A stretch of DNA of 63,541 bases from a virus. The notes below the pieces were generated by a model. That model was not told where the DNA came from. It saw only the letters and a program-made list of their open reading frames with translations, and made no database searches. This document shows, piece after piece, positions 48,514 to 63,426 of this stretch; the first letter of the stretch is position 1, and each line of letters starts with the position of its first letter. The DNA is taken from the IMG/VR virus record IMGVR_UViG_3300034062_004597, positions 1-63,541 of that record. One strand, given 5' to 3'. The translations under genes and the position numbers were made by a program.

Positions 48514-51500
48514 ATGATATACACTATAGGAAGGGTTGACGCTCCCGTAATTGTCGTCTTAACACAACCAAACTACGCAGACATTAAGAAAGGTGAACTT
48601 GCTTCTGGACAAGAACGAGACGCTATCTTATCTATCTTTGAAAGCAGAGGGATCAGCAGAGATGATGTTTGCATCACATGTGTGTACAACACAGACAATA
48701 AAATTGTATCAACAAAAGCAAATGCTGACCGCTATGTTGATAGCTGGTTAAAGCCGTTCATCAAATCACACAAGCGAAGATTGATCGTACCGATGGGTAA
48801 CGATGCTTCGTATGCTGTAGGCGTACTCAAAGACATTGCAGGCGTTAACTTAGTTCGTGGATCAAACTGTAGCTCTGAAGACTATCCAGGCGTACCGATC
48901 TTCCCAACAATCAATGTTTACTTTATCATGCAGACTCCTGATGAGGCAGATGATGTAAGTATCGACGTTCGCAACGCAGTAAACGCTCTAAGAGGATTTG
49001 ACTATAACTTGCCAGAACTTGACATTAGGGATTTGGAAACTCCTGATGACGTGCGAAATATGTTCCTCGAAGCGGCGGAAGAAGGTATCTGTGGATATGA
49101 CTTTGAAACTGATACTGGTGAGAAGCATATTGCAACGGCTGTAACAGCCTCGTTCTACACAGGAAGAAAGAATGACGATGGTGTGCCAATCGTTTACTTC
49201 TGGGGAGCTTATGATCTATTAGTTCCTAGATTCTCAGAAGACCATTTGAAGAAGATGGGGAAAGCATTCAAAGTGTTCTTCTCGAATGCAAAAGATAATT
49301 TCAAGTTGCTGGCCTGGAATATGGGCTTCGATGATGCTGTAGCTCAGCACAACTACTTCGATGACGAAGAGTGGGAAGGCTCTGACGAAGATGGAATGCT
49401 TTATGAGTGGGGAGTTGACAACAGAACTTATAACGGACTCAAAGAAGCTGCGTTCCGAAGGCTTGGCTATCCAAACTATGATGGCCCCGTTGATGAACAC
49501 GTTAAGGCTATCTCAGCTAGACGAGGAAAGAATCTAGTACACCCAGACGACTTCAGAACTCTCGAAAGATTTGGTCAAGAAGCACAAGTTGAAATTTTGA
49601 AGAGCGGCAAGGAAAAGCTGACTTGGCCTAAGACTCTCGATAAGAAGACAGCGGCATGGGCATTGGTTCCTTACGATGATCTTCGCCTGTACAATGCTTA
49701 CGACGCATACTTCACCGTTGAAGTTATCAAGGTTCTAAAGCCGCTGGTCAAGAAGTACAAACTCGAAAACTCGCAGAAGCTAAGACACCGAATCGCTAAG
49801 ATGTTTATGAAGTCCGAGCTTCGTGGATTCCAGTGCGACGTTAAAGCTAACAGAGAAATCAGTGCCGAGCTAGGTGAGTTAATTGAATCATCGAAGAATC
49901 TTTGCCTTAAAGAACTTGATGAACTATTCGAGGACATTAGAGTATTGGAGTTGAATGTGTCGGATGGCAAGTTTGTACTTAACTCTGGGGATAACCTTGC
50001 GAAAATTCTGTACGGTAAGCCGACTGCTATGCCAGCGATTGTTCCAGTGAATGAGCGTGTGAGCAAGAAGCACAAAGCAATTATCGCAGACTTCAACGCA
50101 GAGTTCTACTCGCAAACAGAGAAGGTTAAGGCATTAGTTGATTCTGGTGCTATGGACATCACAGCCATTGATGCGAAGATCAAACACGCATTCAACGTTG
50201 TACATGGCGATGCTGGTATACCATACACCACTTCGATGCAAGACCAATACCTGCACGGATTCTACGTACCAAAATTGTTCACTAAGAATGGTAAGCCATC
50301 TGTGACTGCTGGTGTGCTGAACAATCTTTACGCCGAAAAGCCAATGGAGTTGCTGAAGTACATTCTGATGTACAGACGTGCGTACAAGTTGAAGTCAACG
50401 TTTGTGGACTCGATTTACAATAAGCTGGACGCTGATGGTATTCTTCGCTACAGACTTAATGCTATTGGCACGAATACGGGCCGTGTGAGTTCTTGCGTTC
50501 AGCTTGGTACAGTTGTTAACACCATTGATGGGGCTAAGAACATTGAGGATTTGAAGATTGGCGACATGGTGCTAGGACATGATGGACTTTACCATGCTTG
50601 TGAATCTGATGCCTATACAAAACCACAAGCAATGTTCTACAGAGTGATCAATGCTAATGGTGATAGTATCGTATGTACTGAGAGCCATAGATTCTACACA
50701 GAAAGAGGTTGGAAGGATTGCAACCAATTAGTGCCTGGTTCAACACTCCTATACACATATAAGAATGGTGAATTCAGTTTGGTGGAAGTAGATCGGATTG
50801 AAAAAGAGTACGTAGGCATTCCCTGGGACGTTGCAGTTGAAGGATGTCATAGTTATGTTGCACAAGGGTTTGTAAACCATAACAGCAAGCCGAATTGCCA
50901 GAACTTTGTGAAGTATATTCGTGGACAAATGATTCCTCGTGAGGGTTATGAGTTTGTCGAGTTTGACCTTTCACAAGCTGAAATCCGTGCTATCGCTGCA
51001 TTCTCCGGTGACAAGAGACTTATCGCTGCTCTCTATGAGAAAGACATGCACCGATACATTGCATCTCTTATCTTCAAGAAGCCAATGGAAGAGGTTACGG
51101 ACTACGAACGTAAGGCCAGTAAAGCGCAACCATTGACATCCAATATCTTGACTCCGAATGGTTGGGTAAAGATGGGTGATTTGTCTGAGGGAGATTATGT
51201 AATTGGATCGAATGGTGGTGCCACGCGAGTCATGGGCATATTTCCACAGGGGGAAAAGCAGGTTTATAAGGTTAACGTAGGTGGACACGTAGTAGAATGC
51301 TCTGAAGATCACTGGTGGACTGTGTTTGATAGGAAGTATCGAAAGGATGTTTTGATGACCACAAAAGAAATACAAGATGCTGGTCTCAAATTTAACAAAA
51401 CAAATAGATTTGCTATTAAGACAGTTGACCCAGTAAAGTTCACTAAAACTCAACTGCCGCTGCACCCATACGTTTTAGGTGTTATGCTGGGTGATGGTCA

Positions 51501-52800
51501 CTTTACAGATTCATCCTTCTCTACTAATGACGTTGAGATAGCTGAAAGAGTCAGAGAATTGCTAGGGTGTGAGTACGAAGTCAGGTTGCTACCGAAAGAC
51601 GTACCAAACAAAGTAGATAGCTACAGGATAACGCAGGCATTCAAAGGAGCCAAATCTGGTAAGGCCTTAAATGCTATACTTCGTAATTTAGGATTTAACC
51701 ACAACAGCAAGTCGCATGAGAAATTTATCCCTGATATGTACAAGTACGCTAGTCTTGAAGACAGAATGTGGTTGTTGCGCGGACTAATGGACACTGATGG
51801 AACGTGCGATGCAAGTAAGCCGCAGGCTACGTACACAACTGTTAGTGATAGATTTCGAGATGACGTTATGGAGTTAGTGCGGTCACTCGGCGGCACAACC
51901 AGCAGCCACTCTGAGTACGGTAGTTACATAGATAAAGATGGCAACAAAGTACAAGGAAGATTGGCACATAGGGTCAGAGTCACCGTTCCGAATGATCCAT
52001 TCTCATTGGACAGAAAATCTAGTAGATGGAACATTAAGAAGTACCACGACAAAACGTTCATGCAACCAATTCTAGGTATTGAATCCACGGATGATTATGT
52101 GCCTATGCAGTGTATTCGTGTTGATAGTCCTGATAGCTTGTATGTAACTGATGGGTATGTCCTCACACATAATACGATCATCTTCGGGATTTTATACGGA
52201 CTCAGCCACATTAGCCTAGCTGTAGCCATCAATTGTAGCGAAGAAGAAGCACAAGACTTCATCGAATTCTTCTATGCTGCATTCCCTGATGTTAAGATTT
52301 GGCTTGATAAGCAGATCGAACTAGCAAAGGTTGCGCCGTACAAGGCACGAACTCCGTGGGGAACGATGCGATCCACAAAGAATATCTTCTCAGTCAGCAA
52401 GAAAGAAATCAAGCACATGGAGAACGTGTCTCAAAATATGCCGATCCAAGGTGCTGCTGGTGAACTGACACTTTACTACATCTGTGAAATCATGGATGAA
52501 GTGAAGCGTCAAGGATGGGATGTCCACATGATCAATACTACCCACGACTCCTGTACGCTGGAAGTACCGATTGGATTGTCTGAGCGTGTCATAGAGCTTG
52601 TGGAGAAGGTTGTGGCTGCCCCAGCACCCGTAGCTCCACTAGACACGGTTGTATTCAAGGCAGACATTGAAGTAAGCATGTTCTGGTCTTGTGAGCCTAA
52701 CGTCCGAAAGGCGATTGATCCAAAATACGACACTCCTGACTCAACATTCCCGTGGGATATTGTCCTCGGGATCGACGACACTGAACCTGTAACGGTTTGA
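48514..52800 (+). CDS. Family A DNA polymerase with UDG-like domain and two inteins
   Basis: 1428-aa precursor; about 948 aa after removal of two inteins (residues 661-790 and 871-1220). Order: a UDG family 4-like domain (about 1-165: LASGQERDAILSIFESRGIS), then a 3'-5' exonuclease with GYDFETDT, LAWNMGFDDAVAQHN and YNAYDAYF. The polymerase domain follows with TGRVSS-SKPNCQN, motif A EFVEFDLSQAEIRAIAAFSG, motif B RKASK-TIIFGILYG and motif C THDSCTLEVP. It copies the phage genome. Both inteins sit in the most conserved active-site motifs. Motif C has HDS instead of HDE, as seen in other phage enzymes. Confidence 0.93.
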   Translation: MIYTIGRVDAPVIVVLTQPNYADIKKGELASGQERDAILSIFESRGISRDDVCITCVYNTDNKIVSTKANADRYVDSWLKPFIKSHKRRLIVPMGNDASYAVGVLKDIAGVNLVRGSNCSSEDYPGVPIFPTINVYFIMQTPDEADDVSIDVRNAVNALRGFDYNLPELDIRDLETPDDVRNMFLEAAEEGICGYDFETDTGEKHIATAVTASFYTGRKNDDGVPIVYFWGAYDLLVPRFSEDHLKKMGKAFKVFFSNAKDNFKLLAWNMGFDDAVAQHNYFDDEEWEGSDEDGMLYEWGVDNRTYNGLKEAAFRRLGYPNYDGPVDEHVKAISARRGKNLVHPDDFRTLERFGQEAQVEILKSGKEKLTWPKTLDKKTAAWALVPYDDLRLYNAYDAYFTVEVIKVLKPLVKKYKLENSQKLRHRIAKMFMKSELRGFQCDVKANREISAELGELIESSKNLCLKELDELFEDIRVLELNVSDGKFVLNSGDNLAKILYGKPTAMPAIVPVNERVSKKHKAIIADFNAEFYSQTEKVKALVDSGAMDITAIDAKIKHAFNVVHGDAGIPYTTSMQDQYLHGFYVPKLFTKNGKPSVTAGVLNNLYAEKPMELLKYILMYRRAYKLKSTFVDSIYNKLDADGILRYRLNAIGTNTGRVSSCVQLGTVVNTIDGAKNIEDLKIGDMVLGHDGLYHACESDAYTKPQAMFYRVINANGDSIVCTESHRFYTERGWKDCNQLVPGSTLLYTYKNGEFSLVEVDRIEKEYVGIPWDVAVEGCHSYVAQGFVNHNSKPNCQNFVKYIRGQMIPREGYEFVEFDLSQAEIRAIAAFSGDKRLIAALYEKDMHRYIASLIFKKPMEEVTDYERKASKAQPLTSNILTPNGWVKMGDLSEGDYVIGSNGGATRVMGIFPQGEKQVYKVNVGGHVVECSEDHWWTVFDRKYRKDVLMTTKEIQDAGLKFNKTNRFAIKTVDPVKFTKTQLPLHPYVLGVMLGDGHFTDSSFSTNDVEIAERVRELLGCEYEVRLLPKDVPNKVDSYRITQAFKGAKSGKALNAILRNLGFNHNSKSHEKFIPDMYKYASLEDRMWLLRGLMDTDGTCDASKPQATYTTVSDRFRDDVMELVRSLGGTTSSHSEYGSYIDKDGNKVQGRLAHRVRVTVPNDPFSLDRKSSRWNIKKYHDKTFMQPILGIESTDDYVPMQCIRVDSPDSLYVTDGYVLTHNTIIFGILYGLSHISLAVAINCSEEEAQDFIEFFYAAFPDVKIWLDKQIELAKVAPYKARTPWGTMRSTKNIFSVSKKEIKHMENVSQNMPIQGAAGELTLYYICEIMDEVKRQGWDVHMINTTHDSCTLEVPIGLSERVIELVEKVVAAPAPVAPLDTVVFKADIEVSMFWSCEPNVRKAIDPKYDTPDSTFPWDIVLGIDDTEPVTV
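50494..50883 (+). other. Mini-intein 1 in DNA polymerase (130 aa)
   Basis: Begins with Cys (CVQLGTVVNTIDGAKNIEDL), block A/B features GDMVLGHDG and VCTESHRFYTERGWKD (T-x-x-H), and ends with GCHSYVAQGFVNHN followed by +1 Ser. Removal restores TGRVSSSKPNCQN, the conserved family A motif TGRxSSSxPNxQN. No homing endonuclease domain is present, so it is a natural mini-intein. Confidence 0.93.
51124..52173 (+). mobile_element. Intein 2 in DNA polymerase, class 3-like, LAGLIDADG
   Basis: 350 aa. First residue Ala (AQPLTSNILTPNGWVKMGDL), block B CSEDHWWTV, endonuclease motifs YVLGVMLGDGHF and LLRGLMDTDGTC. Block F reads MQCIRVDSPDSLYVTDGYVL and the end is THN, with +1 Thr. Ala1 plus Trp in block B, Cys in block F and Thr in block G match the WCT signature of class 3 inteins. 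Splicing restores RKASKTIIFGILYG, polymerase motif B. Confidence 0.9.
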
Positions 52801-54491: not shown

Positions 54492-55532
54492 ATGGGCAAA
54501 ATCAAAACAAAATTCGATGGCTTACCTGAGCCAACAGAGCCGCTAAAGGTTGAGTTTATCAGCACTGGTTCTGACGCAATTGACGCCATGCTCGGTGGTG
54601 GAATCCCAAGAACCCGCATTACGCAGGTTTATGGGCCAGAAGACTCGTGCAAAACTGTCTTTGCTTACCGCATTGCAGCTATGGCACAGCGCAAGTACCC
54701 TGACGAAGTTGTAGTATGGATTGACGTAGAACGTACATTCAATGCAGACTTTGCAGAGCTTAACGGTGTGGACATGTCGAGACTTCGGTATCACGCTGCG
54801 ACGAAAGCAGAAGATGTTGCAAATCTTCTTGTCAGGTACGCATGGGCAGAATCCGGTGTGTCACTAATCGTTGTGGATTCTATCGGTCACACTAATCCAG
54901 CATCTAGGATGGATGCTGAGGCGTTTGTTAAGGACTACAATCAAGCGATGGGTAAGAACCCGAAGATCAATACTGACATGGCAAAGAATGTCACCGAAGG
55001 TATTGCAAGGCCAGGTGGGGCTGCTGTCCTAGCTGTTAACCAGATTCGGTTCAAACTTGGCGGGTATGGTGATCCAGAAACAACTCCAGGTGGGCAGAAC
55101 TTGAAACACTCTCTGTCTCTTAACCTACGTGTTGGTAAGGCAAAATCAATTGATGTGCCAACTCCAGGGTATGGCGTAGAGATTCGGGTTCGTGTAAAGC
55201 GTTCTAAGTTGGGTAAGAGCAACGTAGCTACTACCGACAACAACCACTTGAAAGTGTACTTCGCCAAGGATGGTATCGAAGACGCTGACATTTACAATAT
55301 GCGGGATGAGGCCATTCGACGTGGTATCATCTCCAAGTCTGGTGCTTGGTACACAAGTACAGAAATTCCAGGCTTGAAGTCGCAAGGAGATGCAAAGCTG
55401 TTCGCACTGCTCAAGGGTAGCGCAGAACTGCAGGAAACACTCCGAAGGGCTATCGCAGAAGCTCCAGAGGCGTTTGTGTTCGGTGGGCAGGATGTACCTG
55501 AACTGGAAGATGAGTTGGACGCCGATCAATGA
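54492..55532 (+). CDS. recA: RecA recombinase with altered Walker A
   Basis: 346 aa, near normal RecA length (about 350). Features: TGSDAIDAMLGGGIPRTRIT, P-loop GPEDSCKT, WIDVERTFNADFA, Walker B LIVVDSIGHTNP and the strongly conserved NQIRFKLGGYGDPETTPGGQ (L2). An acidic C terminus (ELEDELDADQ) completes it. The canonical P-loop is GPESSGKT; here the invariant Gly before Lys is Cys (codon TGC). Whether this lowers ATPase activity is unknown. It overlaps the primase catalytic gene by 4 nt. Confidence 0.92.
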   Translation: MGKIKTKFDGLPEPTEPLKVEFISTGSDAIDAMLGGGIPRTRITQVYGPEDSCKTVFAYRIAAMAQRKYPDEVVVWIDVERTFNADFAELNGVDMSRLRYHAATKAEDVANLLVRYAWAESGVSLIVVDSIGHTNPASRMDAEAFVKDYNQAMGKNPKINTDMAKNVTEGIARPGGAAVLAVNQIRFKLGGYGDPETTPGGQNLKHSLSLNLRVGKAKSIDVPTPGYGVEIRVRVKRSKLGKSNVATTDNNHLKVYFAKDGIEDADIYNMRDEAIRRGIISKSGAWYTSTEIPGLKSQGDAKLFALLKGSAELQETLRRAIAEAPEAFVFGGQDVPELEDELDADQ

Positions 55533-56218
55533 TAAAGTTAGTTGCTGAAGAATGTCTTCAAGACAAATTTGTACAGCAAGTAACAGAACGAGTATCGACT
55601 AGCGAGGATGCTAGTCGGTACTTGGAAAGTAGAGGAATTAACGAAGATGCTATATTCAAATTTGGAATTGGCTATTTTGATGATAGCGAATACTCTGCGT
55701 TTTATCGCAGGATACTTTTCCCGGTTAAAGACATGGCTGGGAATGTTCTGACCTACCAAGGCAGAGCAAACTTCCTGTGGAAAGAACTCGGTAAACCCAA
55801 GTATTGGCATGGTCAATATGACAAGTCAAACTTCCTTTATGGTCTGTACGAGAACTATCACAAGATTCTCAAAGAAGATTATGTCTTTGTGGTCGAAGGG
55901 CCAATAGATGTCATCTCTCTTTGGCAGGTGGGTGTTCCAGCAGTAGCACTATTCTCAACCGTTCTAACAAAACCCCAAGCTATGCTCCTGCGCATGTTCA
56001 CAAAGAACGTAGTGCTGCTGCTTGACGCAGACGAAGCTGGCGGCAAAGGGTCAAATAAAGCTGCTAAAGTGCTTGAAGATTTAGGCATGAACTATGTACA
56101 GGTGCGTTCTCCGGGCAAGGACGCCAACGAAATGTACTGCGATGACGAAATTGGCCCGGAAAAGTTGTATAATTCTTGTATGGAAGTGGTGAATGTTAAA
56201 TTCAGAACAATACTCTGA
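55529..56218 (+). CDS. Primase catalytic half (DnaG core with TOPRIM)
   Basis: 229 aa. DnaG N-terminal catalytic region (EDASRYLESRGINEDAIFKF, then FYRRILFPVKDMAGNVLTYQ and GRA), followed by TOPRIM: VFVVEGPIDVISLW (Glu), then VVLLLDADEAGGKGSNKAAK (D-x-D) and SPGKDANEMY. The zinc domain and the C-terminal helicase-binding domain are missing. The zinc domain is encoded at 45342-45842. It synthesises RNA primers. Confidence 0.87.
   Translation: MIKLVAEECLQDKFVQQVTERVSTSEDASRYLESRGINEDAIFKFGIGYFDDSEYSAFYRRILFPVKDMAGNVLTYQGRANFLWKELGKPKYWHGQYDKSNFLYGLYENYHKILKEDYVFVVEGPIDVISLWQVGVPAVALFSTVLTKPQAMLLRMFTKNVVLLLDADEAGGKGSNKAAKVLEDLGMNYVQVRSPGKDANEMYCDDEIGPEKLYNSCMEVVNVKFRTIL
56168..56173 (+). promoter_or_regulatory. 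-10 element inside the primase gene
   Basis: TTGTATAAT followed by 6 nt and an ATG at 56180 that is in the primase frame (12 residues left). The likely target is the 124-aa gene starting 13 nt downstream at 56193. Confidence 0.35.
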
Positions 56219-56567
56219 TTACTTGAAAGAAATTGATTCAGAGGTGAGAGGTGCGCTCAAAATCATTAGGATATGGGATGACGCCGCTTTTGAATACTTT
56301 GGATGTAGGTTGACAAAAAAGCAAGTGAAAAGGCTAGTAGGCAAGTTTCTCAAAAACGAGACTGCAGCCAGAATGGATGTAGTGGAGCTTGTTTACGAAG
56401 CTATTCGTAATACATTACTTGCGGAAGATGATTGGGACAATGCAGAAAAATTGCACAACGCATTTCACTCGTCTGTTTGCTGGAGTATTGAAGACAGGAA
56501 AGCTCGTGTGGCTGCACTAATGCAGGAACTTGTTATGGTTTCACAGGAGATACTTTGCGAACAATAA
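56193..56567 (+). CDS. Hypothetical helical protein, 124 aa
   Basis: Overlaps the primase gene by 26 nt and the Rad50-N gene by 13 nt. Mostly helical (RLTKKQVKRLVGKFLKNETA, MQELVMVSQEILCEQ). No recognised family. Being wedged between primase and Rad50 suggests a partner of one of them. Confidence 0.6.
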   Translation: MLNSEQYSDYLKEIDSEVRGALKIIRIWDDAAFEYFGCRLTKKQVKRLVGKFLKNETAARMDVVELVYEAIRNTLLAEDDWDNAEKLHNAFHSSVCWSIEDRKARVAALMQELVMVSQEILCEQ

Positions 56568-57568
56568 AGCGAATCACACTCCATAACTACCTGAGTCATA
56601 AGGATACAACTCTCGATGATCTTGGGGATAGCGTCTGTATCAAAGGGCCAAACCAATCAGGTAAGTCCAACATCTACAATGCTGTATCGCTGGTACACAA
56701 CAACGAAGACTGGCCCGAGCAAGATTTGTTTATTGACAAGTCTGATCCGAACTCTAAACCTTCTATTGAAGGCTACGTTGAAATCGAGTATTCAGACGGC
56801 AGAATCATTCGCAGATCGAAGACAAAATCTAAGAACACCTATGTACTAACATACCCTGACGGTAGGCAAGAACACCTAGGAACAATCAGAGGAGCCGAGG
56901 ATAAGATCAATGAGTTCACTGGATTCATTCCGATGCGACTTTTTAAGGATGATCCAAAGGAAAAACCAGTGATGGTTCAGATGGTTCCACTAGACAACAC
57001 CACACCGTTCCTTATGACGGGTACAAGCCCAGCAGGAGTGCTTCAGGCGATCAACAGGCTATCCAGTGGGTCGCTGTATGATTCTGCCCGTAGACTTGCT
57101 GAGACGGATCACAAGAAGGTACAAGCTGAGCTATCTGCCCTAACCAGGCAGTCTGAGACGCTAAACACTTTGCTCAAAAGCTACGAAGAAAAGAAAGTAG
57201 TCGAAGCAGAAAGTAGGCTAAACGATTTGATCGAAGCCAACAAGAAGATTGATTCTTTGCAGGTAAGGCAACTAGGCATTGAAGCGTCCATTAAAGAATG
57301 TACGTCACTGAGCAAAGTTGACTTCGCTGGATTCAAAAAGTCCGCTGAGATTTTACGCGAGAAGCTAGATGAAGTCACAACTGGCGCAGAAGAATCCATC
57401 AGTAAGAAGAGAGCCAAACTCGATGCTGTGAACGCTGCGATAGTAAACATCGAAACCCTGAAGTCAAAGATAAAGTCAAAAATGAACACCATCAAAACAT
57501 TACAAGAAGAACTTGAAAAAATCAAGGATACAGTGCCGATCTGTGAAACTTGCGGGAGACCACTATGA
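56555..57568 (+). CDS. Rad50/SbcC N-terminal half with hook CxxC
   Basis: 337 aa, TTG start with AGGAG 6 nt upstream. Residues 1-150 carry the ABC ATPase N-lobe with Walker A GPNQSGKS (31-38) and a Q-loop region. A coiled coil follows (about 185-325: VQAELSALTRQSETLNTLLK). The protein ends at a zinc-hook half, PICETCGRPL (Cys 330 and 333). It stops exactly where a normal Rad50 would turn at the hook apex. The C-terminal ATPase half is a separate gene at 58788. Together with SbcD it would form a DNA-end processing nuclease. Confidence 0.87.
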   Translation: MRTIKRITLHNYLSHKDTTLDDLGDSVCIKGPNQSGKSNIYNAVSLVHNNEDWPEQDLFIDKSDPNSKPSIEGYVEIEYSDGRIIRRSKTKSKNTYVLTYPDGRQEHLGTIRGAEDKINEFTGFIPMRLFKDDPKEKPVMVQMVPLDNTTPFLMTGTSPAGVLQAINRLSSGSLYDSARRLAETDHKKVQAELSALTRQSETLNTLLKSYEEKKVVEAESRLNDLIEANKKIDSLQVRQLGIEASIKECTSLSKVDFAGFKKSAEILREKLDEVTTGAEESISKKRAKLDAVNAAIVNIETLKSKIKSKMNTIKTLQEELEKIKDTVPICETCGRPL

Positions 57569-58524
57569 GCTTCAAGGCATTAGCACTTAGCGACCTGCAC
57601 CTTACGGATGCAAACGTAGCTTGCCGTGGTGATGATGTATTCGAGACTCAGCTTAACATGCTGAAGAACATTTACGAGATTGCTGACGAAGAAGGTTGTG
57701 ATTACATCTTGCAGGCAGGAGACGTACTCGATAAGCCTAGGGTATCAAACCGTGTGCTTACGGGATTTGTTGACCTGATCAAGAGCCACAAACAGCACTG
57801 GGTTGTAGTTCCTGGTCAACATGACTTGAAGAACCACAACTACAACAACTGGCAAGTGGATAGCGACTTAGCGATCATTGCGACTCTTACAGACAAGTTC
57901 ACTGTGTTACACGCTGGTGAAAGTAAAGTATTGTCCGAGGAGTTCAAGGTACGTGTGACTGGGTTTGGATTCGAGGAGCCAGCAACTGAAGAGTTCCTGT
58001 ATTCGCAACCTGGATTTATGCCTACAGCATCGGAATACAGAGAGATTGCTATTGTTCATGCTTCAGTGTGCGATGATGGATCACCGTATTGGCAAGACAT
58101 TGCTGAACTAAGTTGGTTGAAAGACTTTACATACGCACAGTTTGGAGACATTCACAAAGGGTTTAGTCCGTGCTTTGTAGGTGAAACCAAGTGCTTCAAT
58201 GGTGGGGTTCTTACTCCAATGAAATCCAATGAATCACAATGCCCATACGTTACTATTCTGCAATTCGATAAGAAAGGTAGCAAGGACAAGATCGTTCGGA
58301 TTCTTGATGATTGGACATTCCTGCAGGACGACAATAAGGTAAAGGATTTGTCCCTAGTCGAGAAGGCTTCAGATAATTTCTTAGAGGTGATCAACACGGC
58401 TAAGAGTCGAGTAAGCGAAGACCCATTAGTTCTTTTGGCAGACATAGCCAGTTCTAATTCCCTGGATGCTAAGATTGTAACAACCGCATCGAAATATGTC
58501 AAGGAAGCAATGATAAATGGCTAA
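57565..58524 (+). CDS. Mre11/SbcD-like nuclease
   Basis: 319 aa from ATG 57565 overlapping the Rad50-N stop (ATGA), with GGGAG upstream. Metallophosphoesterase motifs: LALSDLHLTD (D-x-H), QAGDVLDKPR (GD..D), VVPGQHDLKN (GQHD in place of GNHD), IVHASV and FGDIHKGF (GDIH in place of GHxH). The helical C terminus should bind the Rad50 coil base. The Gln and Asp changes at the metal site are worth noting. Acts on DNA ends and hairpins. Confidence 0.85.
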   Translation: MSFKALALSDLHLTDANVACRGDDVFETQLNMLKNIYEIADEEGCDYILQAGDVLDKPRVSNRVLTGFVDLIKSHKQHWVVVPGQHDLKNHNYNNWQVDSDLAIIATLTDKFTVLHAGESKVLSEEFKVRVTGFGFEEPATEEFLYSQPGFMPTASEYREIAIVHASVCDDGSPYWQDIAELSWLKDFTYAQFGDIHKGFSPCFVGETKCFNGGVLTPMKSNESQCPYVTILQFDKKGSKDKIVRILDDWTFLQDDNKVKDLSLVEKASDNFLEVINTAKSRVSEDPLVLLADIASSNSLDAKIVTTASKYVKEAMING

Positions 58525-58810
58525 TTACGAAGAAACAAAGAGAGAAATTGACAAGTTTGTTAACTTGCTTGAACAAGATCACAATACGCTAACTGAATCA
58601 GCCGCTGCCCTGGCAGAGTTGGTAAAGGCAGATATTGCAGACTACGAAGATAACTTGGAAGGTTTGCTTGAATTCTCATGCGAGTATAAGGATGCACTAG
58701 CTGAACACATCAATGGTGAGGAAGACAAAGTGCAAGCCGCTGCCGATGGTATTATCGCTGAATTTGGTAAGCTGAAGTTGGAGTACAATGCCCGAAAGTC
58801 TACGATCTAA
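58517..58810 (+). CDS. Small acidic coiled-coil protein, 97 aa
   Basis: Between SbcD and the Rad50 C-terminal half, overlapping both (8 and 23 nt). Entirely helical and acidic (ETKREIDKFVNLLEQDHNTL, KADIADYEDNLEGLLEFSCE). It has no CxxC. It may supply part of the returning Rad50 coil or act as a small third subunit. Confidence 0.65.
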   Translation: MANYEETKREIDKFVNLLEQDHNTLTESAAALAELVKADIADYEDNLEGLLEFSCEYKDALAEHINGEEDKVQAAADGIIAEFGKLKLEYNARKSTI

Positions 58811-59405
58811 AATTGCTGAAGCCCAGGCCGCAGTGTCCGCCTACCAGAGTGTTGCTAAGTCTGATCAGCAATTACTCACAAGTGTGGATACACGCACCGT
58901 AGAGGCGAAGGAAAACGCTGCCCACCTTACGGATACGGTTAACTTCCTAAAGCTCTGTGTGACCTCTCAGACGAACGTACGGCAGGATTTAGACTTGATG
59001 AACACCAACATGCTGCAAACACTGTGGGATGATACCTTTGAGTTTAAGTATGTCGAGACCTATGATGAGAATGGAGCGATCAAGGGACTTGTTCCTACAG
59101 TCTTTGAGAATGGACACCCTTCGGCTACAGTAGCCAATGGTGGTGGTATGCGAAATGTGCTAGGGGCATTAACCCGTATGCAGTTCCTGCTTCTTAGGCC
59201 GCAGAATAGTCCTGTTATTGTATGGGATGAGTTTGGTAACAACATGGACGAGTCTAAGTTCAGTGCATTCTTTGACATTGTTAAGTTTGTACAAATGAAG
59301 ACTGATCTACAAGTTATTGCAATCTCACACTCCAGTCACAAATTCGATCAAGAGTTTAATGTACAGCGAGTTAACAAGGTAAGCAAAGTTACTCATACGG
59401 TATAA
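58788..59405 (+). CDS. Rad50/SbcC C-terminal ATPase half
   Basis: 205 aa. A short coiled coil (residues 5-80) is followed by the ABC C-lobe: signature-like VANGGGMRNVLGALTRMQF, Walker B SPVIVWDEFGNNMDESKF and the H-loop VIAISHSSHKFD. No Walker A or hook is present; those are in the gene at 56555. Two halves must pair to form each ATPase head. Its stop codon overlaps the -10 box of the next gene. Confidence 0.85.
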   Translation: MPESLRSKIAEAQAAVSAYQSVAKSDQQLLTSVDTRTVEAKENAAHLTDTVNFLKLCVTSQTNVRQDLDLMNTNMLQTLWDDTFEFKYVETYDENGAIKGLVPTVFENGHPSATVANGGGMRNVLGALTRMQFLLLRPQNSPVIVWDEFGNNMDESKFSAFFDIVKFVQMKTDLQVIAISHSSHKFDQEFNVQRVNKVSKVTHTV

Positions 59406-60044: not shown

Positions 60045-60682
60045 TGGATTTACAAGGAAGAACAAAAGACCAAAGAATACAGTTAGCAAAGGATCACTTC
60101 ATTAAGCAAAACTTGGAGTTGAATTACTCCGACGCATACAACTTAACTGAAATCGTAACTGTACTTGCTAACACCTACGATTTGACTGAATCTACAATCA
60201 TGCAGAACATAAACCTGCAAGACTGGATAGGTTTACGTGCAAGCTATAAGGCCAACAGAGATAAAGAGTTTAGAGAACAAGTAGCAAGAGCAGAGCGTTC
60301 ACGAGAGGTTGAGATGTCTGCGCTTAGGGCTAAGCTACTTAATGCACTTGACAGAGGATTTGATGCAGTGATGGATCGAATTGTGGATGACATTCCTATC
60401 ATGGAAACTCAACACGTTCTAAAAGCTGCTGACACTCTCCTGAAAATGGCTACCATGTACAACGAACTTAGCAAGGAAACTGTTAAGACCGATGACAATG
60501 AAAATGCTACTGCAACACTCGAAACCACATTGCAACGTGTGGAGAAGCTGGCAGGAGAACCATCAAAGGTTATTGACCTAGCGGAGAGAGCTTTAGATAA
60601 AGGTACAGAGAAAGCATTAGCAGAACATAATTCGCAGGCAGCGGAGAAAGAGCAATTGTTTAATAGGCTCAGTGAGATATGA
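60044..60682 (+). CDS. Putative terminase small subunit
   Basis: 212 aa. An N-terminal HTH-like region (LNYSDAYNLTEIVTVLANTY, then DLTESTIMQNINLQDW) and a charged helical oligomerisation region (AERSREVEMSALRAKLLNAL, then VLKAADTLLKMATMYNELS) follow the small terminase plan. It overlaps the large terminase gene by 4 nt. It would recognise the packaging site. No sequence-level family match is certain. Confidence 0.68.
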   Translation: MDLQGRTKDQRIQLAKDHFIKQNLELNYSDAYNLTEIVTVLANTYDLTESTIMQNINLQDWIGLRASYKANRDKEFREQVARAERSREVEMSALRAKLLNALDRGFDAVMDRIVDDIPIMETQHVLKAADTLLKMATMYNELSKETVKTDDNENATATLETTLQRVEKLAGEPSKVIDLAERALDKGTEKALAEHNSQAAEKEQLFNRLSEI

Positions 60683-63426
60683 GTAAGAAATTTGGCGATG
60701 AACTAATCGAGAAAGCGCAGCAAGAAGATGCGGCTAAACTTGTTGACGAAAACAAGAAAGCTATTGTAGAAATTCTTGCTACAGAGGAAGGAAAGTCTAC
60801 GCTGGAGACTATTAAGTTCCATGTAAAGAAGGAGACGGTTGGTAAGCTACCGAGAACTCCTGAAGATGTGTACCAGTACGTCAAGAAAGTTTACGGATAT
60901 GATATTCCGTGGACAGCTTGTAGCCCTGAAATGAATGCACCTTTCGAGTGGTTCTATGAAGTCTTCACTGGTAAGGTTCGTAAGTCTGTGGCCCAAGGTT
61001 CACGGGGCAGCGGTAAGACTCTTCTGGGTTCTGTTATGCACCACATGTGGTGTTCAACTACTCCAGGCGCAGAAACACGACACGCTGCTGCTTCCAAACA
61101 ACAATCTTCAGTTGCACAGGGATACTTACGTGTTTGGGATAGAGACCCAGTTCTCAGCAGCTTACTCGTCAAGGGTGGACTTAACAAAGAATCCGCTACC
61201 TGGATAAACGGATCGTACTGGAAAATCGTTACTGGTTCTATGGCTGGCGTTTGTCTCAGTGGAGATACACAAATCATAACCAACATCGGTGCGCTTCCAA
61301 TCCATGAAATTGTTGACAACAAACTACAAGTCAGGGTTCTATCTGCAAATCCAGCTACGCATTTGCTAGAATGGAAAGATGTGATTGGTTGGCACAATAA
61401 CGGACGTGAAAACGAATGGTGGCGTGTCAGGTTGCAATATTGCTTAAACAGCAAGGTCAAACAAAGTAAGTTCACGAAGAATCACCAGATCATGCTTCGA
61501 GATGGAAGCAAGAAGCAGCTATGTGATCTACTGCCAGGAGATAGGGTTGCACAAAAATGCTATCGCTACAGCGAAGATGAAAAGCAAGTCTTACTTGGTA
61601 GTCTTCTAGGTGATTCCACTGTAGATAAATCATTTAGATATTGCTTTGTTCACGGTAACGAACAGAAATACTATGGTGATTGGAAGTACGCTGCACTGGT
61701 TGATGATACTCACCAAGGTAAAGTTACAAAGTGTAAAGGTGGATTTGGAACGGAATGTAACTACTATCGTCTACGAAAAACTTTGTACACACAAAAGCTA
61801 CGGCCTCTTTGTTACCCTAACGATACAAAGAAAGTTACCAGAGAATGGTTAGATCAGCTTAATGAACTAGGTGTAGCCACTTGGCTAATGGATGATGGGT
61901 CGTTTAGTAGTGGGCGTAATTGGGACATATACACTAATGGATTCACTTTAGAGGAACAGCATGTTGTAGCTGACTTCTTCAAAGATCGACTAGGTATAAC
62001 CGCTAATATCAGAACCGACAAACGTAATGGAGTAAGGTACTACATATCTTTCACAGCAGAGGACAGTAAGATTCTTACGAAGTACGTCGAACGTTACCTG
62101 GTAGTCAAAGACAAAAAGAAAATTTGGCTGTGTGTACCAATCATAAAAGGTGCGCCAGGTGTGTGTAGCAATCCAGTGCTAAAAATACAACGTGCTACAA
62201 CAGAACACGTAAATGGTCGTAAGGGCAAGAATTTCATGGAACCCACAAATCGTATTAAGTACGATATTACGGTTGCTGATTTCCACAACTACGTAACGGT
62301 TGATGGATTGAATGTATCAAATTCTGGGTCGCACCCGATGGCAGTTACATGGGACGAGTTGGAGTTCTGGGACACTGCTGCTATCGAACAAACTTGGGCT
62401 GTGCCTATCAATGTTAACCCAAACATTCCTGGTATTTGGGCTGGGTTTAGTACGATGCAACGAGCGTATGGTGCTATGGCTTATCTTGTCAATGCTATCG
62501 AGACAAAAGAGAAGGAAGACATTAAGCTGTACAAGTGGTGCATGTTTGAAACCATGAAGAGGTGTGAAACATGTGTTGCCATTGACGAGAATCCTCACGG
62601 TGATGACGAATCGAGGCAGAAGTCATGTGTTCTATGGGAAGACTGTCACGGGCAGCGAGGCATCAAATCAAGTGGATGGATTCCTCGTGAAGATGTATGC
62701 TCACTTAAAAATAGCATGAGCTTGACATCATGGCAAACCCAAGGACTATGTTTAAGACCTAGCTCCCAGGGTGTTGTTCTACACAACTTCACACACGAGT
62801 ACAAACCAAAGGGTAATTACAGCAAGTGGGTATTCGACTACGATAACCCTGTCTGGTACGCCTGTATCGACCCAGCAGAGGGCAAGAAATGCGTAATCTA
62901 CTTTATCCAGCTAGACCAGTATGGGAATAGATATGTATTTGATGAACTCAACATTGAACAGTGCGCTGACGCTTCCCAAGCCAAATTAGCATTCTATGCT
63001 AGGTGTATGGAAAAAAGATACGGCGATCCAGAAGTCATGGTGTTTGACCCACGAAGAACTGACGCTATGGCTACGTTTGCGCATGGTTCAAAGTTTGGTA
63101 GCGGTTTGAACAAGTCATACAAGGTAGACAAACCTGACATGGCTGAGAACAAAGGTGGACAAGAAATTGTTGTCACTATTGAATTTTTGAGAGCATCAAT
63201 TAGAAATGGTGCAGGTGAGATGTCTTTGTTTGTGAATCCAGAGACATGTCCAAAGTTGGTGATTGCGATTAAGCAGCACCACTACAGAACAAAGAAGAAT
63301 TCTACTGAGATTGTGGGTAACATCCCTGCTGAAGCATACAAGGATGAAATTGACCCGCTACGATATTTTGAGCAATGGTTTAAGTACAAATTTGGCTCGA
63401 ACAACGTCAGTATCAGAATTCTTTAG
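60679..63426 (+). CDS. Large terminase with intein
   Basis: 915-aa precursor, about 558 aa after splicing. Walker A QGSRGSGKT (residues about 106-114). After the intein, Walker B lies in GSHPMAVTWDELEFWD (precursor about 551-566), followed by the coupling motif AGFSTMQ. The C-terminal RNase H-like nuclease has WYACIDPAEGKKC (first Asp), DPEVMVFDPRRTDA and DEIDPLRYFEQWF (last Asp). It pumps DNA through the portal and cuts concatemers. It is separated from portal and capsid genes by the window edge or by many kilobases. Confidence 0.92.
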   Translation: MSKKFGDELIEKAQQEDAAKLVDENKKAIVEILATEEGKSTLETIKFHVKKETVGKLPRTPEDVYQYVKKVYGYDIPWTACSPEMNAPFEWFYEVFTGKVRKSVAQGSRGSGKTLLGSVMHHMWCSTTPGAETRHAAASKQQSSVAQGYLRVWDRDPVLSSLLVKGGLNKESATWINGSYWKIVTGSMAGVCLSGDTQIITNIGALPIHEIVDNKLQVRVLSANPATHLLEWKDVIGWHNNGRENEWWRVRLQYCLNSKVKQSKFTKNHQIMLRDGSKKQLCDLLPGDRVAQKCYRYSEDEKQVLLGSLLGDSTVDKSFRYCFVHGNEQKYYGDWKYAALVDDTHQGKVTKCKGGFGTECNYYRLRKTLYTQKLRPLCYPNDTKKVTREWLDQLNELGVATWLMDDGSFSSGRNWDIYTNGFTLEEQHVVADFFKDRLGITANIRTDKRNGVRYYISFTAEDSKILTKYVERYLVVKDKKKIWLCVPIIKGAPGVCSNPVLKIQRATTEHVNGRKGKNFMEPTNRIKYDITVADFHNYVTVDGLNVSNSGSHPMAVTWDELEFWDTAAIEQTWAVPINVNPNIPGIWAGFSTMQRAYGAMAYLVNAIETKEKEDIKLYKWCMFETMKRCETCVAIDENPHGDDESRQKSCVLWEDCHGQRGIKSSGWIPREDVCSLKNSMSLTSWQTQGLCLRPSSQGVVLHNFTHEYKPKGNYSKWVFDYDNPVWYACIDPAEGKKCVIYFIQLDQYGNRYVFDELNIEQCADASQAKLAFYARCMEKRYGDPEVMVFDPRRTDAMATFAHGSKFGSGLNKSYKVDKPDMAENKGGQEIVVTIEFLRASIRNGAGEMSLFVNPETCPKLVIAIKQHHYRTKKNSTEIVGNIPAEAYKDEIDPLRYFEQWFKYKFGSNNVSIRIL
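61252..62322 (+). mobile_element. Intein in large terminase, LAGLIDADG endonuclease
   Basis: 357 aa. Starts CLSGDTQIITNIGALPIHEI (Cys1). Block B reads FTKNHQIML. The endonuclease has LLGSLLGDSTVDKS and GVATWLMDDGSFSSGR, of the LAGLIDADG type. Block F is YDITVADFHNYVTVDGLNV and the end is SN before +1 Ser. Splicing restores GSMAGVSGSHPMAVTWDE. The penultimate residue is Ser instead of the usual His. Confidence 0.92.

Follow-up and report, generated by a model that had tools for sequence, protein, structure and literature searches.

A Rad50 encoded in separate halves, with SbcD and a small coil protein, in viruses and on Bacillota chromosomes

The described SbcCD/Mre11-Rad50 complexes, among them E. 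coli SbcCD, archaeal Mre11-Rad50 and T4 gp46-gp47, have ABC ATPase halves with Rad50 motifs, a coil arm, a CxxC hook and a calcineurin-type nuclease. The same features were found at the locus reported here, but its Rad50 appears as three separate proteins, with one break at the hook and a second in the descending coil, and a small coil protein (S) is an added component. Two long-standing questions about Rad50 are whether its hook needs a covalent loop and what mechanical part the coil plays. Some phage enzymes in pieces were made by homing endonuclease insertion, as in nrdA of phage Aeh1. As there, one enzyme would be made from separate chains, and endonuclease-like genes lie at the split in some members; here, however, the split is common to phages and chromosomes and looks old, and most loci have no endonuclease at the split.

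The SbcDC fusions of Mimivirus R555 and its relatives, which occur in viruses and Firmicutes, are likewise rearranged forms of this complex. They join SbcD to SbcC, whereas here SbcC is split, and the passages of Yoshida et al. 2011 (PMC3175470) consulted describe no separate C-half or small coil subunit. The paper states that one SbcC P-loop segment was not observed in Anaerostipes and in Bacillus phage 0305phi8-36; with its Firmicutes fusions, this is the nearest published hint. In the open-access literature searched (subscription papers and preprints were outside the scope), no split Rad50 was found, and the set is apparently undescribed; an earlier note on this DNA knew of no described system of this layout.

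The window, i.e. the whole stretch of DNA analysed, was a 63.5-kb IMG/VR virus record. Four overlapping ORFs on its + strand, named N, D, S and C, spanned 56555-59405:

56555..57568, + strand: Rad50 N-half (N), 337 aa, TTG start, Walker A GPNQSGKS, ending VPICETCGRPL-stop; made up of ATPase lobe I with Walker A, an ascending coil arm and the C-terminal zinc-hook motif CETCGRPL
57534..57557, + strand: zinc-hook CxxC region at the C-terminus of the N-half, sequence VPICETCG
57565..58524, + strand: SbcD/Mre11 nuclease (D), 319 aa, with GQHD as motif III and GDIH as motif V
58517..58810, + strand: small coil protein S, 97 aa, acidic, without CxxC, predicted single helix 2-96
58788..59405, + strand: Rad50 C-half (C), 205 aa, with NGGG signature, Walker B VIVWDE and His-switch AISHS, without hook

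The SbcD start overlaps the N-half stop through ATGA, and a Shine-Dalgarno-like stretch was present 5' of all four gene starts. A RecA/UvsX-type gene and a Toprim-domain primase gene were identified immediately upstream of the set, and a RusA-like resolvase gene immediately downstream (Pfam/PHROGs). The arrangement described in the earlier note, with four overlapping genes for an N-half ending in CETCGRPL, SbcD, an S without CxxC and a hookless C-half, was confirmed. The C-half was not bare of coil, its first ~70 residues being a coil root that is followed by the signature motif, Walker B, D-loop and His-switch of ATPase lobe II. The free, asymmetric hook that the note had proposed was not demonstrated: the CxxC is a complete half-hook in each N, and two N chains can still pair via one zinc, like ordinary Rad50. 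What appears unusual is that each hook lies at a chain end, with the descending strand not covalently attached.

Profile searches recovered 249 viral loci, 160 of them distinct, and 84 distinct loci from bacteria or MAGs. N, D, S and C were four separate ORFs at 147 of the 160 distinct viral loci and at 75 of the 84 distinct bacterial/MAG loci; most incomplete loci were cut by contig ends. This recurrence of the four-part set is far beyond chance. The order was N-D-S-C in viruses and D-N-S-C in most Bacillota. Relatives in IMG/VR were reached only with family alignments; neither individual window proteins nor an N alignment of two rows gave matches there. Among 50,697 deposited phage genomes only a handful had a detectable match, a rarity that may explain why the split set went unnoticed.

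Microcystis phage Mvi-JY20 shares with the window the order N-D-S-C and the resolvase after it (18-33% identity, depending on the gene), and its N-half likewise stops just after CSQCNRLV. Bacillus phage vB_BboS-125 has N, which ends CPLCEQTHKGGGC, then an AP2-domain gene, a 78-aa coil gene, C and an unannotated SbcD. The last CxxC lay 6-34 residues from the N-half end in 139 of 144 distinct viral cases, typically 8-12 aa from the stop. Four of the five exceptions have C-x6-C in place of CxxC; N-halves with such a hook (CPxxxxxC) were those of L052, L072, L089 and L269. In the fifth, L050, the hook (CVLCG) is directly followed by a fused HNH-like domain. Homing-endonuclease-like genes or domains (HNH, AP2) were seen at or near the split at L050:411-2003, L003:3158-3730 and L013:4403-4945. 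Endonuclease-like insertion is a possible origin of the split.

The window N-half matched AAA_23 (Pfam, 2.6e-10) and phrog_77 SbcC (PHROGs, 2.5e-13), and the window SbcD matched Metallophos (Pfam, 1.1e-11) and phrog_100 (PHROGs, 2.3e-8). The window C-half matched phrog_77 (PHROGs, 1.3e-4) at profile positions 820-953 of 967 and had no NCBIfam match, the lobe II match being weakest in the window and strong in relatives. Profiles and structure model matches placed a Rad50-type ABC ATPase lobe I with Walker A in the set, lobe II with signature motif, Walker B and His-switch was present too, and the partner nuclease carried Mre11 phosphoesterase motifs I-V. Walker A was confined to N, and the signature and Walker B were confined to C. 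In comparisons with one-chain proteins, the Thermoactinomyces N matched positions 4-463 of 878 of archaeal Rad50 (1.9e-28), and the Peptoniphilus C matched positions 658-869 of 872 of Rad50 (1.5e-12). The CxxC was invariant in a 76-row N alignment. Both lobes and the hook were not found on one polypeptide, as they were separate ORFs in all complete split loci, and no conventional one-chain Rad50 of the split family was found among the 160 distinct viral and 84 distinct bacterial/MAG loci. The split complex is descended from Mre11-Rad50 and, judged from its sequences, would work like it.

S, as the family was defined, is a helical protein of 75-118 aa that is encoded between D or N and C and matches the S profile. 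The window S reached 3.9 bits against the S profile in a jackknife, compared with a coil-decoy 95% level of 8.0; it is a putative family member, placed there for its gene position, size and helical prediction and not for its sequence. The case for the window member is carried by the layout and not by S sequence similarity. It is the most divergent member of the family, and in a preliminary C-half tree, with mostly-viral and mostly-Bacillota clades, the window and Mvi-JY20 were on a very long branch.

The most probable reading, in our judgement, is a Mre11-Rad50 (SbcCD) complex whose Rad50 consists of three chains, N, S and C; we infer its assembly, the position of S, zinc binding and activity as follows. 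N (Walker A, ascending arm and hook) and C (coil root, signature and Walker B) would form one composite ABC ATPase, with SbcD bound at their joint coil root. The hook would form from two N chains whose C-terminal CxxC motifs share one zinc, and the long helix of S would replace the upper descending coil, packed along the N arm in the stretch from the hook to where C begins. The complex would process DNA ends for phage RecA/UvsX-type recombination and, in Bacillota with a chromosomal set, for RecA.

AlphaFold2 modelled the window N-half (76 rows; pLDDT 81, pTM 0.42) as lobe I, helices 172-253 and 257-326, and hook 327-337, with residues 116-155 at low confidence and unreliable; its best matches in the PDB (Foldseek) were Rad50 ATPase lobes. 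The window S was modelled as one helix, residues 2-96 (pLDDT 88.6, pTM 0.40); the pTM was low for both models. In the window, the N arm of ~155 residues is roughly equal to S (95) plus the C coil (~65), and in the PHROG SbcC profile the N and C matches are 184 columns apart, a spacing that agrees with the ~172 residues of S plus C coil. The layout is as if an ordinary phage Rad50 of short length had been severed behind the hook and once more in the descending arm. This rough match in length of the putative antiparallel arms was absent from members with longer arms. N arm lengths peaked at 151, 198 and 245 residues in viruses and at 254 and 301 in Bacillota, in steps of ~47 residues that represent helical modules gained or lost singly (e.g. 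L118, L123, L132 and L177). The S+C length was constant (285 +/- 8 and 301 +/- 8), with no positive correlation with the N arm. In Peptoniphilus, N-halves of 434-435 and 482-483 aa were one contiguous module apart, and S (77-78) and C (216-218) in the same set were unchanged between the two N lengths. Since N arms lengthen while S+C stays constant, the longer arms cannot be paired with S+C over their full length. The surplus N modules may remain unpaired, fold back or pair with those of another N. No significant covariation was seen between S and N; the positive control of this analysis was so weak that the test lacked power.

In three Bacillota genomes, SbcD, Rad50 lobe I and lobe II were fused in a single chain of ~690 aa without coil or hook:

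L188:4264-6318: SbcD-Rad50 fusion
L189:4652-6754: SbcD-Rad50 fusion
L190:5083-7170: SbcD-Rad50 fusion

These were the only N+C fusions found, and no S was found near the three. They are possibly close relatives and perhaps represent one event. The joint loss of S and coil links S to the coil and not to the nuclease or the ATPase. A Rad50 with a cut loop, arms of discrete lengths and a coil-free fused version are ready-made test variants for the questions of loop and coil raised above.

Other readings of the set are less probable. The Rad50 could be three-chain with S acting as a separate helical adaptor or regulator instead of descending coil, for example as a third strand accompanying C at the coil root, or as a factor that binds DNA or SbcD. 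S length did not track the N arm, S and C were not adjacent genes in 38 of 95 viral loci, the best diagonal between S and the C coil was parallel and not end-to-end (and insignificant), and the S family consensus has a break (EWGCKTLEEA), so that many S members may be hairpins. However, S was missing only where coil and hook were missing too, in the window its predicted length suits the missing stretch of the descending arm, and it accompanied the split in essentially every complete locus; we regard this role of S as rather unlikely. A rather improbable arrangement is one in which two N arms pair in parallel, with their two C-terminal CxxC closing one rod and antiparallel N:C contact at the root only. 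It would explain how N arms lengthen by single 47-residue modules without change in S or C, but known Rad50 offers no example of such pairing, and short N arms match the S+C length.

That N, S and C are really one protein, through a sequencing error or programmed frameshift, has next to no probability. The genes do overlap, and S and C are in different frames in most adjacent loci, but in viruses SbcD is encoded between N and S/C, Bacillota have another order (D-N-S-C), the pieces are parted by other genes in many loci, and the same layout occurs in hundreds of contigs and type-strain genomes. A missed frameshift, named in the earlier note as what would overturn a three-chain Rad50 split at the hook, was ruled out by the recurrence, the SbcD in between and the differing gene orders, and the split is conserved. 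A programmed +1 shift between S and C was also rejected, the frames being variable and other genes often intervening. Equally negligible is the chance that the set is a decaying remnant of a Rad50 gene, for which the split itself is the whole of the argument: ATPase, hook and nuclease motifs were kept across deep divergence, and the chromosomal locus beside recA is conserved, so this candidate was refuted by conservation. A defence system was considered as well and rejected, as the PADLOC matches were generic ABC-ATPase matches to partial profiles.

The three-chain layout is not restricted to phages. In Bacillota the set is chromosomal and usually beside recA; of the 80 genome loci checked, ~48 had RecA in the flanks. 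In Thermoactinomyces vulgaris the operon has recA-recX on one side and rny-ymdB on the other, and in Peptoniphilus genitalis it comes after cinA-recA; gene names at these loci are from sequence reading, and recA, recX, rny, ymdB and cinA in other loci were assigned by BLAST. The chromosomal arrangement recA-(recX)-SbcD-N-S-C(-rny) was seen at L123:1544-8419 and L132:1011-6639 in Thermoactinomyces and Peptoniphilus, and the Rad50 parts at these two loci had no curated NCBIfam match at cutoff. In a sample of 398 Bacillota genomes, ~61 had a strong match in a C-half-sized frame, the C-half frame being the only one scored. SbcD above the TIGR00619 cutoff was found in 0 of 20 genomes with the set, compared with 7 of 20 without it, so that the split complex may be the chief one in those Bacillota and their main end-processing complex. 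For many Bacillota this suggests that the genes beside recA, with Rad50 parts lacking a curated NCBIfam match, are the missing SbcCD. We lean towards a distinct, old lineage in phages and Bacillota, with an obligate three-chain Rad50, free-end hooks, arms of ~47-residue modules uncompensated elsewhere and a helical S, which may be the main complex beside recA.

The metal site of the viral SbcD was changed in many members. GQHD replaced GNHD in 87 of 152 (the window and 86 others), always together with GDxH for GHxH. For motifs III and V, the combinations were Q+D in 87, N+D in 35, N+H in 30 and Q+H in none of the 152 members; the two changes, GNHD to GQHD and GHxH to GDxH, were thus ordered and linked, as Q never occurred with H. 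In Mre11 structures these residues are ligands of the second metal, and altered metal use or activity is possible.

Elsewhere in the window, the short primase (55529-56218, 229 aa) matched DnaG_N and Toprim, and a similar short Toprim-type gene was present in Mvi-JY20 (L001:2406-3062). Read by eye from Hint-like motifs, the DNA polymerase ORF (48514-52800) apparently contains two inteins and the terminase ORF (60679-63426) apparently one.
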